Below, in pieces: positions 30,446 to 38,108 of a DNA stretch of 49,022 nt. The position numbers and the translations under genes were made by a program. Below the pieces are notes generated by a model. It was not told the origin of the DNA and did no database searches. It worked only from the letters and a program-made list of their open reading frames with translations. The stretch is from Myxococcales bacterium (GTDB taxonomy: Bacteria; Myxococcota_A; Polyangia; GCA-2747355), in the NCBI GenBank assembly GCA_020431405.1, contig JAGQIK010000021.1:1-49022 (forward strand), read 5' to 3'. The stretch's first letter is position 1; each line of letters begins with the position of its first letter.

Positions 30446-31333
30446 ATGCACCGTGGTCTCGTGCTCTCCCTGGCAGCCTGCGCGGCGCTATTGATCGCCA
30501 TCGGCTGCGGTGATGATCGCCAGCCCGTCGGCGATGGCGGCGGCAAAGATCAGATCGTCAACAACGACACCGGCCCGACCGACGGCACGCCGCCGCCCAC
30601 CGACGGCACGCCGCCGCCCACCGACGGCACGCCGCCTGGCGACGCGCCGCCCGCCGCGCAGTGCACCAGCGCCGCGCAGTGCAGCGGCTACGCCTGCAAC
30701 CTGCAGTCGATGACCTGTCGCACCACGTGCACGCAAGGTAGCCACTGCGCCAACGGCTACACCTGCAACGCCAACAACCAGTGCGTGCAGCCCGCGGCCT
30801 GTCCGCCCGAGAGCGCCTGCGGCGGCTACGCCTGCAACGCCGCGCAGGGCATCTGTCGCGTTTCGTGCAGCCAGCAGTCGCACTGCGCGCAGGGTTACAC
30901 CTGCAGCAACGGCGCGTGCATCCAGACGATCCAGTGCCAGAACGACACGCCGTGCATGGGCTACACCTGCAACACGACGCAGGGCGCCTGCCGCACCAGC
31001 TGCAACACGTTCGTCGGCTGCGCCCAAGGCTACGCCTGTCGCAACAACACCTGCGTGCAGCAAGCGCAGTGCACCACCGACGCGCAGTGCAACGGCTACG
31101 CCTGCATCACCCAGCAGAACATCTGCCGCATCAGCTGCCAGCAAAACGGCCACTGCGCGCAGGGCTACGGCTGCAACAACCAGCAGATGTGCGTGCAGGC
31201 CGTGACCTGTCAGAACGACAACCAGTGCAGCGGCTACGAGTGCAATAACGGCACCTGTCGCACGGCCTGCCTCTTCTCCGGCCACTGCGCGCAGGGCTAC
31301 GTCTGCCGCCAGTTCGCCTGCGTCCAGCCCTAG
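30446..31333 (+). CDS. Cys-rich repeat lipoprotein (295 aa)
   Basis: MHRGLVLSLAACAALLIAIGC is a lipoprotein signal (Cys21). A linker of about 50 residues contains three TDGTPPP units coded by a 21-bp tandem repeat (30577-30640). The remainder is five tandem units of about 41-45 residues with the plan C-x5-CxGYxC-CRxxC-CAQGYxC-CVQ; spacing differs slightly between copies. Each unit has about eight Cys and would form a disulfide knot, as in EGF-like or similar surface modules. Family not recognised. A GGAG ribosome site lies a few bases before the ATG. Confidence 0.8.
   Translation: MHRGLVLSLAACAALLIAIGCGDDRQPVGDGGGKDQIVNNDTGPTDGTPPPTDGTPPPTDGTPPGDAPPAAQCTSAAQCSGYACNLQSMTCRTTCTQGSHCANGYTCNANNQCVQPAACPPESACGGYACNAAQGICRVSCSQQSHCAQGYTCSNGACIQTIQCQNDTPCMGYTCNTTQGACRTSCNTFVGCAQGYACRNNTCVQQAQCTTDAQCNGYACITQQNICRISCQQNGHCAQGYGCNNQQMCVQAVTCQNDNQCSGYECNNGTCRTACLFSGHCAQGYVCRQFACVQP
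30577..30640 (+). repeat. 21-bp tandem repeat x3
   Basis: Three direct copies of ACCGACGGCACGCCGCCGCC plus C, the last copy divergent at its end, coding TDGTPPP in the linker of the Cys-rich lipoprotein. In-frame, so copy changes would alter linker length only. Confidence 0.8.
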
Positions 31334-32858: not shown

Positions 32859-34487
32859 CTAGGGAGCGTGCAGCTCCAGCGGCAGCGTGTCCCAAAAATC
32901 GCAGGTCGCGGACTGCAAGGCGCTGCCCTCCTTCTGCGTGACCCCGATCTCGAGGTACTTGCCGCTTGCCGCATCGTAGCGTGGCCACGCGGCGGCGCCG
33001 CCACCGTTGGGATCGCTGGTCTTCGCGAAGCGCGTCCAATAGCCCTGAATCGCCGTCGCGACGGGCTTCTCGCTTGCTGGGAGGGGGGCTGGGATCGGCA
33101 TGCCGAATAGGTAGAGCAGCTCGGCGCCGTGGGGCGAGCGCAGAAACGCATCGACCGCGGCGAAGACTGAAGGCTCGTGCGTGAACTGGTAGAGGTATAC
33201 GGGCTGCCCCGCGGCGGCGACGGCGCGGGCCATGCGTCGCACCGCGCAAGTGAAGATGCTGTCGGTGATGAGCGCGACCATCGCTTCGACCGGGCTGCCG
33301 TAGCTGCTGGTGTCGTAGCGCGCGAGGATCTTGTCGGCGTCGGCGGAGCTGAAGGCGTTTTCCACGAGCTGGCGCATCGTCGCGGTGTCCATCGCCTTGA
33401 GCTCGCTGGTGTTCAAGAATAGGGTCGCCTCTGTCGCGTTCGACCCGATGATCAGAGGCACCTTGTTGAAGTTGCCGTTGGCGAGGGCTTCGGGCGGTTG
33501 CTCGAGCAAGGTGTCGCCATCGACGAACGGCATCATGAACGGCCGCGCGTCGTAGTGCAGGCGCAGTGGCAGCTCCATCGCTTCGGCGAGGCGCTTGGCG
33601 CTCGTGTCGCGCAGACACTTGGCCTCGTCGCTCGCCGTGTCGCACCCCACGGCTTTGGATACCAACTGGCCGTAGCTCTCGGCCTGTGCCCGCGTGCGCA
33701 TCTTCATGCAGGTGCCGCTCTGCATCACGGCGCGATGGAACAGGTCCTTGCTCTTTGGCGAGACGAGGTGATAGCAGCACGAGAACGCGCCGGCCGATTC
33801 GCCGAAGATCGTGACGTTCTCGGGGTCACCACCGAAGGCGCGGATGTTGTCTTGCACCCAGCGCAGGGCGGCTTGCTGATCGAGCAGTAGAAAGTTGCCC
33901 GGGCCCTGGCCCAGCGCGGGGTGCGCCATCATGCCCAGCGGCCCCAGCCGATAGTTGACCGCGACCACGACGACGTCGTGCAACGCCGCCAAACGCTGTC
34001 CCGAAAACAACTCGGTCGCGGCGCCGCCAATGGCGAAGCCGCCGCCGTGAAACCAGACCATCACCGGCGCCTTCGCGGGCGCGGGGTTTGGTGACCAGAC
34101 CGCGAGACTAAGGCAGTCCTCGTCGAAGTTCTCGGCGACGCTCACGCCGAGCACCGGCTCGGTATAGGGCTGCCAGCACGATGGACCGTGCTGGGTCGCG
34201 TCTCTCGGCGTCGTCCAGGCTTTCGGTGGCTCTGGCGGTTTCCAGCGCAGGTCGCCTACCGGCGGCGCCGCGTAGGGAATGCCCAGGCACGCGCGAAACC
34301 CTCCGATGACCTTGCACTTGATCGGCCCCTGCTGGGTAGTGACGAGCGTGGGATCACCAGCGTCTGCCGGTGTCGCGTCGCCGACCCCATCGCCGACGCC
34401 CATGTCACCAGGCTGACTGCTGCTGGAATCGCAAGCGGCTGCGAAGGTGAACAGGCACACCACGGCAAGCCGAACGACAATGCGCAT
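32859..34487 (-). CDS. Carboxylesterase lipoprotein A (type B carboxylesterase/lipase)
   Basis: 542 residues. The signal VCLFTFAAAC is a lipobox, followed by an Asp/Gly-rich linker up to GDPT. The catalytic core has the oxyanion HGGGFA, the nucleophile elbow GESAGA, an acid in GSNATEATLF and a His in SPHGAELLYLFG, all in type B carboxylesterase positions. It should hydrolyse esters at the cell surface. An AGGGAGG ribosome site precedes ATG 34485-34487; a GTG directly before it is an alternative. It is a close relative of the esterase at 36495-38108, the two flanking a radical SAM gene on the same strand with only 43 and 80 bp between genes, so a three-gene operon is likely. Confidence 0.9.
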   Translation of the reverse strand: MRIVVRLAVVCLFTFAAACDSSSSQPGDMGVGDGVGDATPADAGDPTLVTTQQGPIKCKVIGGFRACLGIPYAAPPVGDLRWKPPEPPKAWTTPRDATQHGPSCWQPYTEPVLGVSVAENFDEDCLSLAVWSPNPAPAKAPVMVWFHGGGFAIGGAATELFSGQRLAALHDVVVVAVNYRLGPLGMMAHPALGQGPGNFLLLDQQAALRWVQDNIRAFGGDPENVTIFGESAGAFSCCYHLVSPKSKDLFHRAVMQSGTCMKMRTRAQAESYGQLVSKAVGCDTASDEAKCLRDTSAKRLAEAMELPLRLHYDARPFMMPFVDGDTLLEQPPEALANGNFNKVPLIIGSNATEATLFLNTSELKAMDTATMRQLVENAFSSADADKILARYDTSSYGSPVEAMVALITDSIFTCAVRRMARAVAAAGQPVYLYQFTHEPSVFAAVDAFLRSPHGAELLYLFGMPIPAPLPASEKPVATAIQGYWTRFAKTSDPNGGGAAAWPRYDAASGKYLEIGVTQKEGSALQSATCDFWDTLPLELHAP

Positions 34488-34530
34488 CACGCCCCTCCCT
34501 ATACAGTGCCGCCTGCGCTGCGGCGTCCCG

Positions 34531-36414
34531 CTAGTTGCCCTGCGCGCCGTCCTTCGGGCCCGCGTCCATCGGCGGCGGCGGCGCTTCGATGACGCCGAAG
34601 TCCTCGCGCACGTCGACGCTGAGGTCCATCGGCGGCGGCGGCGCTTCGATCACGCCGAGGTCCTGTTTCACGTCCACGCGCATGTCCATCGGCGGCGGCG
34701 GCGCTTCGATCACGCCGCTGTCCTGCTTGGTGCCGTCGCCGTTGCAGCTGGCGATGCCGAGCGCTAGCACCAGCGCCGCGGCGTGGCGCGGGATGCGCGA
34801 GAGCAGGCTCGCCGAGCGGCGCGTGATCGGCTTCGATGGCTCGAGGCCGAGCTTGCGATAGGACTGCGTGCGCAGCGCCTCGCGCAGCTCGCAGGCGCGC
34901 TGCTGCAGCACGTGTGTCGTGGCGCGCTCGTGCTGGTGAAGCTCGGCGAGCTCACGCGAGAGCGCCTCCGACTCGAGGCTCGGGTTGGCCTCGCAGGCGT
35001 CGATCAGGCGCGCGATGAGCTCGACGCTGTCGCTGTTGACGTCGTACTGGAAGGCGCGCATCTCGGCCACCAGCGCGTCGACGTCGGGGCCGACGTAGAA
35101 GTGACGGTAGACGGCGGCGAGGTGGTCGAGCTGGATCGCCTGGCCGAGCAGGTTCTGCTGGCTCCAGCAGCGATCGCGCAGCAACTCGACGCCGGCCTGC
35201 CAGATCACGGGCACCACGTCGTCGCTGTAGCTGTAGCTGCGCGCCAGGTAGTCGCCGCGCGCGCGACCGGCGTCGAGCATGCGCTGCTCGAGCGGCGTGC
35301 CGCGATAGGCTTCGGCGCGGCAGAAGCTGAGCGGGTGCTGGATGTGGCGCCGCGCGAAGTCGAGGTCGTCGCGCATGGTCTGCGGCGTCGCCTCGGGGTG
35401 GAAGGTGATGATGGTGTACTGCGTGGAGATGCCGAGCTCGGCGCAGACGTCGAGCGCGCGATGTTCCTGCGCGACGGTCTGCTGCCTGCGCCCGAGCGAC
35501 GCGAGGCCGGCTGCCGACGCCGACTCGATGCCGAGAAACACGCGCAGCAGGCCGAGCGCCTTGAGGCGCTCGAAGACCTCGGCGTCGACATCGGCGGGGC
35601 GGCACTTGAGCACAAGGCCGATGCTCTCGACGCCGCGTTCTTCTAGCGCCGTGGCCAGCGCGTCGATGCGTTGCAGGTTGTGCGAGACCTTGGGCACGAG
35701 GAAGTTGTCATCGTGAAAGACGAACTGCCGCACGCCGCGCCCGTGGTAGAGCGAGGCCATCTCGTCGGCGATCTTTTCGGGCGCGCGTTGGCGAAAGCGG
35801 CGTCCCGGCGCGAGCCGATGAAGCGTCGTGATCGCGCAGTAGTCGCAATTGCTGACGCAGCCGCGGCTGCCCATCATGTAGGCCGTCGGCACGCCGACGA
35901 CCAGGCGCGCCGGGCCACTGCGATCAGCCCACGGCAGCGTGTCGAGGTCAGCGACGATCGGCCGCGGTGCGGTGTGCTTGACCATGCCGTCGGTGTCGCG
36001 GAAGGCGATGCCGCGCACGTCGGTGAGCGTCTCCGGCGAGATCGCGTCGAGGGAGGCCAGCTCGACGATCGTGCGCTCGCCTTCATGGATCACGATCACG
36101 TCGAAGACGGGATGAAACGCGAGCAGCTCGCCAGCGGCGCACGAGGCGTAGTGTCCGCCGACGATGATCGGGCGCTCCGGCCGGTCGGCGCGCAGCGCCT
36201 TGGCCAGGTCGATGAACTCGCGCGCACGGATCTGGTAGCACAGCGAGAGCGCGACGAGATCGGCCCGCTCGCAGGCGGCGCGCACGTTTTCGAAGTCGGC
36301 GTCGGTGTCGAAGGCGATGATCCGAGGCGTGTGACCGGCCTCTTGGAGCGCGGCCGAGAGGTAGCGGATGGAGAGGTTCTCTTCGAGATCCGGACCGATC
36401 AACGCGACACGCAT
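34531..36414 (-). CDS. B12-binding radical SAM protein with lipoprotein-like C-terminal repeat tail
   Basis: 627 residues. Residues 1-150 are a cobalamin-binding-type fold (MRVALIGPDLEENLSIRYLS and VGGHYAS) without the usual DxHxxG. The radical SAM cluster motif is GCVSNCDYC (Cys186, Cys190, Cys193), and the core continues to about 460. After a helical linker comes a hydrophobic segment AAALVLALGIASC that looks like a lipobox, then three 20-residue repeats with GVIEAPPPPMD and a short acidic end. No in-frame ATG, GTG or TTG precedes the signal-like part, so the tail is fused to the enzyme. A GGAGG site precedes ATG 36412-36414. The tail might be a self-substrate, or a once-separate precursor lipoprotein; the enzyme would then modify its Pro or other side chains. 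Substrate and fold of the tail are not known to me. Confidence 0.8.
   Translation of the reverse strand: MRVALIGPDLEENLSIRYLSAALQEAGHTPRIIAFDTDADFENVRAACERADLVALSLCYQIRAREFIDLAKALRADRPERPIIVGGHYASCAAGELLAFHPVFDVIVIHEGERTIVELASLDAISPETLTDVRGIAFRDTDGMVKHTAPRPIVADLDTLPWADRSGPARLVVGVPTAYMMGSRGCVSNCDYCAITTLHRLAPGRRFRQRAPEKIADEMASLYHGRGVRQFVFHDDNFLVPKVSHNLQRIDALATALEERGVESIGLVLKCRPADVDAEVFERLKALGLLRVFLGIESASAAGLASLGRRQQTVAQEHRALDVCAELGISTQYTIITFHPEATPQTMRDDLDFARRHIQHPLSFCRAEAYRGTPLEQRMLDAGRARGDYLARSYSYSDDVVPVIWQAGVELLRDRCWSQQNLLGQAIQLDHLAAVYRHFYVGPDVDALVAEMRAFQYDVNSDSVELIARLIDACEANPSLESEALSRELAELHQHERATTHVLQQRACELREALRTQSYRKLGLEPSKPITRRSASLLSRIPRHAAALVLALGIASCNGDGTKQDSGVIEAPPPPMDMRVDVKQDLGVIEAPPPPMDLSVDVREDFGVIEAPPPPMDAGPKDGAQGN
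34564..34716 (-). repeat. 60-bp tandem repeat coding EAPPPPMD units
   Basis: Three in-frame units of 60 bp at the 3' end of the radical SAM gene (last unit partial). The DNA of the conserved part, covering GVIEAPPPPMD, is nearly identical in all three; the nine-residue spacers vary (MRVDVKQDL, LSVDVREDF). It appears under selection for the repeat core. Confidence 0.85.
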
Positions 36415-36494
36415 TGCGCCTCCTATGTCATCCCAGGGCAGCGATGTTAGGAGAGCGCGCGGTTGTCGCGCATGATGTCTGTCAGGCGGGAGTG

Positions 36495-38108
36495 CTACAG
36501 CGGCAGATCGCGCCAGAAGTCGCAGGTGTCGCGCTTGAGGGCGTTCTTCTCGGTCTGCTGCTCGGCGTCGAGCTCGAGGTGCTTGTCGCTCGTCGCATCG
36601 TAGCGGGGCCACGGCACGGCGCCGTCGCCGTTGGGATCGCCGGTCGAGGCGAAGCGCGCCCAGTAGCCCGTCATCGTGTCGACGAGCGGCTTCTCCTTGG
36701 CGATGAACGGCAGCGGTGTCGCGGGGATGCCGAATACGAAGGGCAGCTCGGCGCCGTGCGACGCGCGCAGATAGGGATACAGCGAGTAGTGGCTCGGCGC
36801 GTAGACCCATTGGTAGAGATAGACGGTCTCGCCCGCGGCGGCGACGGCGCGCGCGGTGCGGCGCGTGGGACAAGCGAAGATGCTGTCAGTGACGACCTCG
36901 GCGAGCGCATCCCGCGGCGTGCTGTAGCTGGCGCTCGGGTAGCGCGCGATGACCTTGGCGGCGTCCGCGGCCTCGAAGGCGTATCCGATGCGCTCCTGGT
37001 ACTTCGCGTCGTCCATCGCCTTGTGCTCGTCGCCATTGAGAAACAGCGTGCCTTCGTTGGCGTTGCTGCCGAGCAGCACGGACACCTTGTTGAAGCTGCC
37101 GGCGGCGAGCGTATCCACGGGCTGCTCGACGAGGCTGTCGCCGTCGACGAAAGGCAAGAGCAGCGGACGCCCGTCGTAGTGCAGCAGCAGCGGCAGCGGC
37201 GCGGCGAGGACCAGCTCCTCGGCGGTCTTGCCGCGCAGACACGCGGACACGCTGGTCGCCGTGTCGCAGCCGACGGTCGTCGCCAGCTGCTGGCCGAACG
37301 CTTCTGCATCGGCGCGCGTTGGCAGCTTCAGACACGCGCCGCTCTGCATGATGCCGCGCTGAAAGAGCCCCTTGCTCTTGGGCGAGGCGAGGTGCAGGCA
37401 GACGCTGATGCCGCCAGCGCTCTCGCCGAAGAGGGTCACGTTGTCGGGATCGCCGCCGAAGGCAGCGATGTTGTCTTTGACCCAGCGTAGGGCCGCCTGC
37501 TGGTCGAGCAGCCCGAAGTTGCCCGAGCCGCTGCCCAGCGCCGCGTGCGCGAACTGTCCCATGGCACCGAGGCGGTAGTTCATCGCGACGACGACCATGC
37601 CGTGCTTTTCTGCCAGGCGGTAGCCAGCCCAGCCGGGCACGGCTGCGCCGCCGAGCGCGAAGCCGCCGCCGTGGATCCAGACCATCACGGGCGCTTTGCG
37701 CGGCGCCGGGTCGGGCGTCCAGACCGCGAGCGTCAGACAGTCCTCGGAGAGCTTGTCGAGCACGATGATCGAGTTCTTCGCCTGCACGCACGACGCGCCA
37801 TACTCGGTGGCGTCGTGCGGCGCGGTCCACGGCTGCGGCGGCTCGGGTGCTTTCCAGCGCAAGTCGCCGATGGGCGGGGCGGCGAAGGGGATCGAGAGGA
37901 AAGCGCGGTATCCGCTCTCGACTTTGCCCTTCACGGGGCCGTTGGTGGTCACGACGAGGGTGGGATCGCCGGCGTCGCCGTCAGGTCCAGCGTCGCCGGG
38001 CGCCTGCTCGCCGCTCGACGTGTCGTTCGCTGGCGTGTCGTCATCGCTGCAGCCCGGCGTGCCGAGCTGTAGTAGGACAATCAACGCAGCCGTCGTCGTT
38101 AGTCGCAT
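36495..38108 (-). CDS. Carboxylesterase lipoprotein B (type B carboxylesterase/lipase)
   Basis: 537 residues, same plan as the esterase at 32859-34487. Signal ALIVLLQLGTPGC with lipobox Cys20, Asp/Gly-rich linker ending GDPTLV, then HGGGFALGG, GESAGG with the nucleophile Ser, acid in GSNANEGTLF and His in ASHGAELPFVFG. Clear paralogue of esterase A along its whole length. A strong GAGGAGG ribosome site precedes ATG 38106-38108. It is the first gene of the likely esterase, radical SAM, esterase operon. Confidence 0.9.
   Translation of the reverse strand: MRLTTTAALIVLLQLGTPGCSDDDTPANDTSSGEQAPGDAGPDGDAGDPTLVVTTNGPVKGKVESGYRAFLSIPFAAPPIGDLRWKAPEPPQPWTAPHDATEYGASCVQAKNSIIVLDKLSEDCLTLAVWTPDPAPRKAPVMVWIHGGGFALGGAAVPGWAGYRLAEKHGMVVVAMNYRLGAMGQFAHAALGSGSGNFGLLDQQAALRWVKDNIAAFGGDPDNVTLFGESAGGISVCLHLASPKSKGLFQRGIMQSGACLKLPTRADAEAFGQQLATTVGCDTATSVSACLRGKTAEELVLAAPLPLLLHYDGRPLLLPFVDGDSLVEQPVDTLAAGSFNKVSVLLGSNANEGTLFLNGDEHKAMDDAKYQERIGYAFEAADAAKVIARYPSASYSTPRDALAEVVTDSIFACPTRRTARAVAAAGETVYLYQWVYAPSHYSLYPYLRASHGAELPFVFGIPATPLPFIAKEKPLVDTMTGYWARFASTGDPNGDGAVPWPRYDATSDKHLELDAEQQTEKNALKRDTCDFWRDLPL

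Follow-up and report, generated by a model that had tools for sequence, protein, structure and literature searches.

Does a gene that reads through from a radical SAM enzyme into a repeat-bearing, lipoprotein-like tail encode an enzyme together with its own substrate? The locus that raises this question lies in a 49,022-nucleotide stretch of DNA from a Myxococcales bacterium (assembly GCA_020431405.1, contig JAGQIK010000021.1), the whole of which is called here the window. A preliminary description had proposed an enzyme-precursor fusion and had named three findings that would speak against it, none of which was encountered. Homologues carry the tail rather than all lacking it, the in-frame fusion recurs in orthologues rather than stemming from a sequencing error, and the repeated cores are strongly depleted in nearby genes, lipoprotein-like ones included, rather than being broadly spread in unrelated lipoproteins. 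The proposal is thus supported.

The fused gene and its product

The whole fused gene, for a B12-binding radical SAM enzyme with an export signal and a three-core tail, occupies positions 34531..36414 on the minus strand, as delimited by a single open frame, by the Pfam B12-binding and Radical_SAM domains and by fused orthologues. Its translation gives 627 residues without an internal stop, which confirms the passage in one frame from enzyme into tail that had been noticed earlier. A Shine-Dalgarno-like AGGAGG (36419..36424, minus strand), read directly, precedes the ATG at 36414 with a 4-nt spacer. A longer frame from TTG 36873 was rejected: it overlaps another gene and is not needed.

The B12-binding domain (PF02310, residues 12-119, 36058..36381, minus strand, E 1.2e-15) and the radical SAM core (PF04055, residues 183-354, 35353..35868, minus strand, E 1.8e-16) both score above the Pfam gathering score. 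The cysteine motif reported at residues 186-193 was recovered from sequence and alignments as CVSNCDYC, a CX3CX2C [4Fe-4S] motif (35836..35859, minus strand), and its cysteines C186, C190 and C193 are invariant in alignments of 25 and of 74 relatives. By domain pair and CX3CX2C motif, the product is classed as a cobalamin-binding radical SAM enzyme, with cofactor binding and SAM cleavage predicted.

The AlphaFold2 model shows a confident enzyme fold, with pLDDT above 90 for 495 residues, closed by a long C-terminal helix (residues 483-521, 34852..34968, minus strand, pLDDT about 95 over most of its length); the tail is mostly disordered. In structure comparison, the closest solved folds were OxsB (Z 24), MgmA, AprD4, CysS and TsrM, and a profile search returned the same group of nearest enzymes. 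The target of MgmA, a methylase, is a glutamine in a protein. Ahead of core 3, residues 604-608 are modelled at slightly more than pLDDT 50, and some of the structural alignments extend to 610-616; this is a weak hint, from the model of the window protein alone, that the segment before core 3 may touch the barrel. Core docking was absent in the model of a distant member (L144).

Behind the enzyme, an export segment (residues 530-557, 34744..34827, minus strand) was delimited from sequence and orthologue alignment; it comprises a positive stretch, RHAAALVLALG and a lipobox-like IASC. Its hydrophobic part, RHAAALVLALGIASC (residues 543-557), ends in the lipobox-like Cys557 and precedes three copies of GVIEAPPPPMD, read in the sequence at residues 567-577 (34684..34716), 587-597 (34624..34656) and 607-617 (34564..34596), all on the minus strand. 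The internal signal with its Cys and the three 20-residue units are therefore as first described. In DNA, repeat comparison gave a 60-nt tandem unit in three copies (34564..34743, minus strand), with 100, 83 and 75% identity to the reference copy; the GVIEAPPPPMD array was found once in the 11.2 Mb window genome. At least 90% of the orthologue alignment rows keep R543, H544, A546, A547 and A551 in the hydrophobic segment, as well as G567 at the core. Judged from this alignment, conservation in the hydrophobic segment exceeds the needs of a simple signal peptide.

The fused gene is flanked by two similar carboxylesterase-like lipoprotein genes (window 32859-34490 and 36495-38108, minus strand) in the same orientation, with gaps of about 40 and 80 bp. 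These flanking genes are not common to the loci of relatives, where no conserved neighbours were found beyond the separate precursor genes described below. Elsewhere in the window (30446-31333, plus strand), a lipoprotein-like gene has a PPPTDGT linker repeat and Cys-rich repeats, an ordinary-looking linker in contrast to the cores.

Fused and split relatives

A scan of 84,980 species genomes yielded 80 loci, including orthologues 48-66% identical to the window gene. In these orthologues, enzyme, signal and cores again lie in one frame, and spacers and length vary; the tails carry GVAEAAPPPYD three times (L079 and L084), five VAEA(A/P)PPP cores (L080), MFEAPPPPMGG twice (L078) or SEYAPPPLED (L083). 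Since the same in-frame fusion is present in orthologues from other genomes, a lost stop or a sequencing error is ruled out. Three more subfamily members, 36% identical and each with a tail of its own (VVDPLPPDMGRD three times in L003/L070), are encoded in the window genome, which makes four paralogues in all. A search of 379 genomes from the phylum with the enzyme profile set the subfamily clearly apart: scores were 545-751 bits for complete members, about 320 for a neighbouring subfamily and no higher than 213 for other B12 radical SAM proteins. Because many loci lie on MAG contigs (one, L096, is filed as Nealsonbacteria), phylum names are rough.

With export signals called by hydropathy and Cys pattern, 85 of 90 fused proteins had a hydrophobic segment, 87 a net positive stretch ahead of it and 83 a Cys just after it. 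The first core lies downstream of the segment in 78 of the 82 fused proteins that have cores. Cores number from 0 to 13 per protein (median four, n = 90); their types include EAPPPP, CEMAPPP and VVDPLPPD, often with a folded domain after them. A handful of fused members (L072, L081, L088) lack a clear core and were counted against the explanation that we favour below. Some tails and one split partner have a type-I-like site with no Cys (PLAAAQ in L079, GAHAQQ in L126), which suggests that export, rather than lipidation, is the common feature.

Inspection by eye of the tails of L081, L082, L083 and L088 indicated that the cargo after the signal varies, with thrombospondin-type D-rich repeats, ankyrin-like repeats and a HYDIN-like beta domain. 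The spirochaete orthologue L082 has an in-frame TAG at codon 18 (1883-1936), and its close relative L081 is intact. Members of the neighbouring subfamily (L060-L063, L066-L068, L024-L026; about 300-325 bits for those with a score) likewise have a signal and Cys in a fused tail, but what is conserved there, in place of the acidic-proline cores, is an FPCLA..EC or FPCLADFEICPEF motif at the C-terminus.

In about 36 members the protein stops near residue 545, and for most of these a neighbouring gene encodes an exported, core-bearing protein. The preliminary description had suggested looking for repeats that form a gene of their own, adjoining that of a B12 radical SAM enzyme; this was found several times, in split pairs, in profile matches and in a row of five genes. 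A GYGVVDPLPPPARC core, for instance, is carried by a separate exported protein beside the enzyme, with an MPEVLP leader, and in Hyalangium versicolor H56D21 (L146) the enzyme is paired with a GVVDPLPPPARC neighbour. Partner cores include PPYGVVDPLPPPARC (Hyalangium, L146), CLVMDPLPPPAQC (Archangium, L141), IVCDPLPPPMQC (L046), IVCDPLPPPMNC (L104), AVDPVPPPLQC (L152) and AVDPPPPALQC (L094). Precursors of the GVVDP type often start with the leader MPEVLPxP, followed by R-x-R ahead of the hydrophobic segment. WVEPAHF repeats are one core type of split partners, and EPAHF repeats occur in the partners of Geoalkalibacter (L115) and Methanoperedens (L154). The partner lies upstream of the enzyme in L176 and L178, with GYGVVDPMPPPADC, and in L155, with EPAH repeats. 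Two upstream lipoprotein partners (in L022 and L019, with YDVPAPPDG or YIVPSPPDG) were paired by reading only and count against the favoured explanation, as do the tailless members L040 and L056, for which no partner was found.

As a separate observation, the EPAHF/EPAHW-repeat precursors of L115, L123, L154, L155 and L020, which stand beside enzymes of Desulfuromonadales and methane-oxidising archaea, show no obvious signal peptide.

Low-complexity tail repeats give chance matches across genomes, and a precursor profile was therefore built from eight split precursors, without enzyme sequence. It matched in 11 of 360 genomes, and nine of the 11 matches were beside a subfamily enzyme; four of these nine had seeded the profile and five had not. 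The remaining two were a strong match at a contig end (G311) and a marginal one with no enzyme found (G182). At one locus (L201, G378:C467, 1888-4330), five consecutive precursor-like genes, with one GYxVVDxxPxP core each, follow a single enzyme, the frame of which is broken in that assembly.

In a tree of 131 enzymes, 89 of the 125 classifiable members had a fused tail, and the window gene fell in a clade of ten, all fused. With automatic labels, fused/split state and core type combined required 31 changes, compared to 72.5 when shuffled; once labels had been corrected by reading, there were 4 changes for fused/split state and 5 for core type. So few changes suggest that core type travels with the enzyme clade, and that the fused/split state changed rarely but repeatedly.

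Constraint on the core and alternative explanations

A general core pattern, defined after inspection, occurred 298 times in 62 of the 80 fused tails, compared to 42 +/- 7 times in shuffled tails; the shuffling ignores relatedness, yet with so large an effect chance is an unlikely explanation. Core density was 1.47 per 100 aa in fused tails, 0.046 in neighbouring ORFs (n = 528) and 0.089 in lipoprotein-like ORFs (n = 50), that is, about 16-fold higher in fused tails than in nearby lipoprotein-like genes. Among more distant B12 radical SAM proteins, 19 were compared and none had acidic-proline cores; three of the 19 belong to a side group whose tail is of another type. A plain low-complexity linker is ruled out by the control ORFs and by these other B12 radical SAM enzymes.

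The three cores of the window gene are identical at 32 of 33 DNA positions, one base differing. The copies could therefore be recent, and selection on the core is not demonstrable from this gene alone; the evidence for constraint comes from the relatives. Within genes, core residues are kept between copies, different codons are used at conserved positions in 18-53% of pairs, and flanks are mostly 20-45% identical. Positions fixed by the pattern are identical by construction, so the information lies in what the pattern leaves free: the differences in codons and the conservation of G-V-x ahead of the E-core.

Read together in the sequences, the single frame, the domain order, the recurring fusion, the recurring split pairs, the core enrichment and the clade-matched core types point to a one-gene modification-and-export system, which we consider probable: the enzyme would modify the cores on its own tail in a RiPP-like manner, and the tail would be exported as a lipoprotein. 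Also counted against this explanation are the mostly disordered tail of the AlphaFold2 model, the unusual placing of a signal peptide downstream of 520 folded residues, and the outcome of the domain analysis, in which nothing like a leader-binding (RRE-like) domain was recognised.

The alternative that survives best, which we nevertheless regard as unlikely, is that the tail is no substrate: the hydrophobic segment would anchor the enzyme in the inner membrane, a domain or linker would be placed in the periplasm, and the proline cores would serve for binding or as a stalk. Proline-rich linkers are indeed common in envelope proteins, and many tails end in folded domains, such as the all-beta domain of L144 (residues 689-755 of the AlphaFold2 model). 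In split systems, however, a separate core-bearing protein cannot anchor the enzyme, and up to five core-bearing partners accompany one enzyme. Core type, moreover, tracks the enzyme clade, and other lipoprotein-like genes seldom contain cores.

A tail that is a substrate, but is made as a separate protein from an internal start, would yield two products, the fusion being only genetic; we hold this to be very improbable. Contrary to the preliminary description, which had seen no start codon before the signal, an in-frame ATG at 35061 (codon 452) and a GTG at 34911 (codon 502) precede it, and the leader of 25-60 residues before the signal in split relatives is similar to the length from GTG 502 to the signal. 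However, the 20 nt upstream of each codon contain nothing that resembles a Shine-Dalgarno sequence, and the enzyme frame is continuous in all fused orthologues. An accidental, functionless read-through fusion with a neighbouring low-complexity lipoprotein, which the near identity of the three DNA units at the core and the D-rich linkers common in lipoproteins of the window genome might suggest, has almost no likelihood left, as the same architecture is found in about 90 distinct proteins across the tree and an error would be needed in every orthologue, at 48-66% enzyme identity.

Known systems and proposed mode of action

The arrangement is undescribed in NCBIfam, Pfam or the literature searched, and precedents exist for each half. 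Split precursors matched no NCBIfam or Pfam family at E 0.1; fused proteins gave enzyme-domain matches only, plus one sub-threshold DAHL match (L045). Literature searches, in which coverage of subscription journals was thin, returned nothing relevant for the motif strings and, for radical SAM-precursor fusions, only borosins and general RiPP papers.

Fused borosins (OphMA type) carry the modifying enzyme and a C-terminal substrate peptide on one chain, and split bacterial SonM/SonA also exist (PMC11285071). The window gene resembles them in that a C-terminal tail, the putative precursor, is fused to an enzyme, and in the existence of split versions. Borosin enzymes are conventional SAM-dependent backbone N-methyltransferases, whereas the window enzyme has the domains and fold of a B12-binding radical SAM protein instead, and is separated from the cores by an export signal. 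In MNIO RiPP-lipoprotein hybrids (DybA/ChrA type), cytosolic modification of a substrate whose export signal is of type II or type I is followed by the lipoprotein or secretory pathway, and some substrates exceed 30 kDa (PMC12636315). An export signal with lipobox before the putative modified region is shared; the hybrids, in contrast, use an iron oxidase (MNIO, PF05114), separate genes and a CPACGMG core.

Closer in enzyme type are ApyD, rSAM_ocin_1 (TIGR03975) and MgmA, which have the same domain pair and fold and some of which act on peptides or proteins. Scores were 115 bits for ApyD (NF050148, cut-off 750) and 51 bits for the RiPP maturation radical SAM C-methyltransferase TIGR03975 (cut-off 282); none of the three is known to have a signal-plus-core tail. 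The CUAEP/CCAEP-tail radical SAM (seleno)protein NF040546 (62 bits, cut-off 500) is likewise a radical SAM protein and takes its name from a short motif at the C-terminus; its description is not known to include an export segment or repeats.

We propose that the N-terminal 520 residues would work in the cytosol as a cobalamin-binding radical SAM enzyme on the repeated acidic-proline core of the C-terminal tail (here three GVIEAPPPPMD), either in cis or across partner subunits. With its lipobox-like Cys, the hydrophobic segment would then direct the tail, once modified, into Sec export, and cleavage of the signal peptide would follow, as would lipidation, the latter expected only where a lipobox is present; the modified lipoprotein would leave the cytosol and the enzyme part would stay behind. 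Sister lineages would use the same enzyme with the same kind of core-bearing exported protein, encoded by two adjoining genes. Catalysis on the core, cleavage and lipidation are what we infer from this arrangement; from the enzyme class, one may guess at C-methylation at or next to the acidic/proline core.

In its boldest form, which we hold tentatively and at slightly less than even confidence, the proposal is that one polypeptide would modify its own repeated core by B12 radical chemistry, export and lipidate the core part and shed the enzyme, as a polyprotein family in many phyla with split versions that reach the archaea. Since related bacteria encode both parts fused or adjoining, this looks like a widespread, undescribed route to modified exported, often lipid-anchored, proteins. 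If so, radical SAM chemistry would act on a large, unnamed family of exported proteins. Each enzyme, being physically joined to its substrate, could be paired with it from sequence alone, which would remove the usual obstacle of the field, that of finding the substrate, and make the reaction testable through one gene. The split pairs would allow the reaction to be tested independently with two genes, and in some genomes there are several paralogues whose cores differ.
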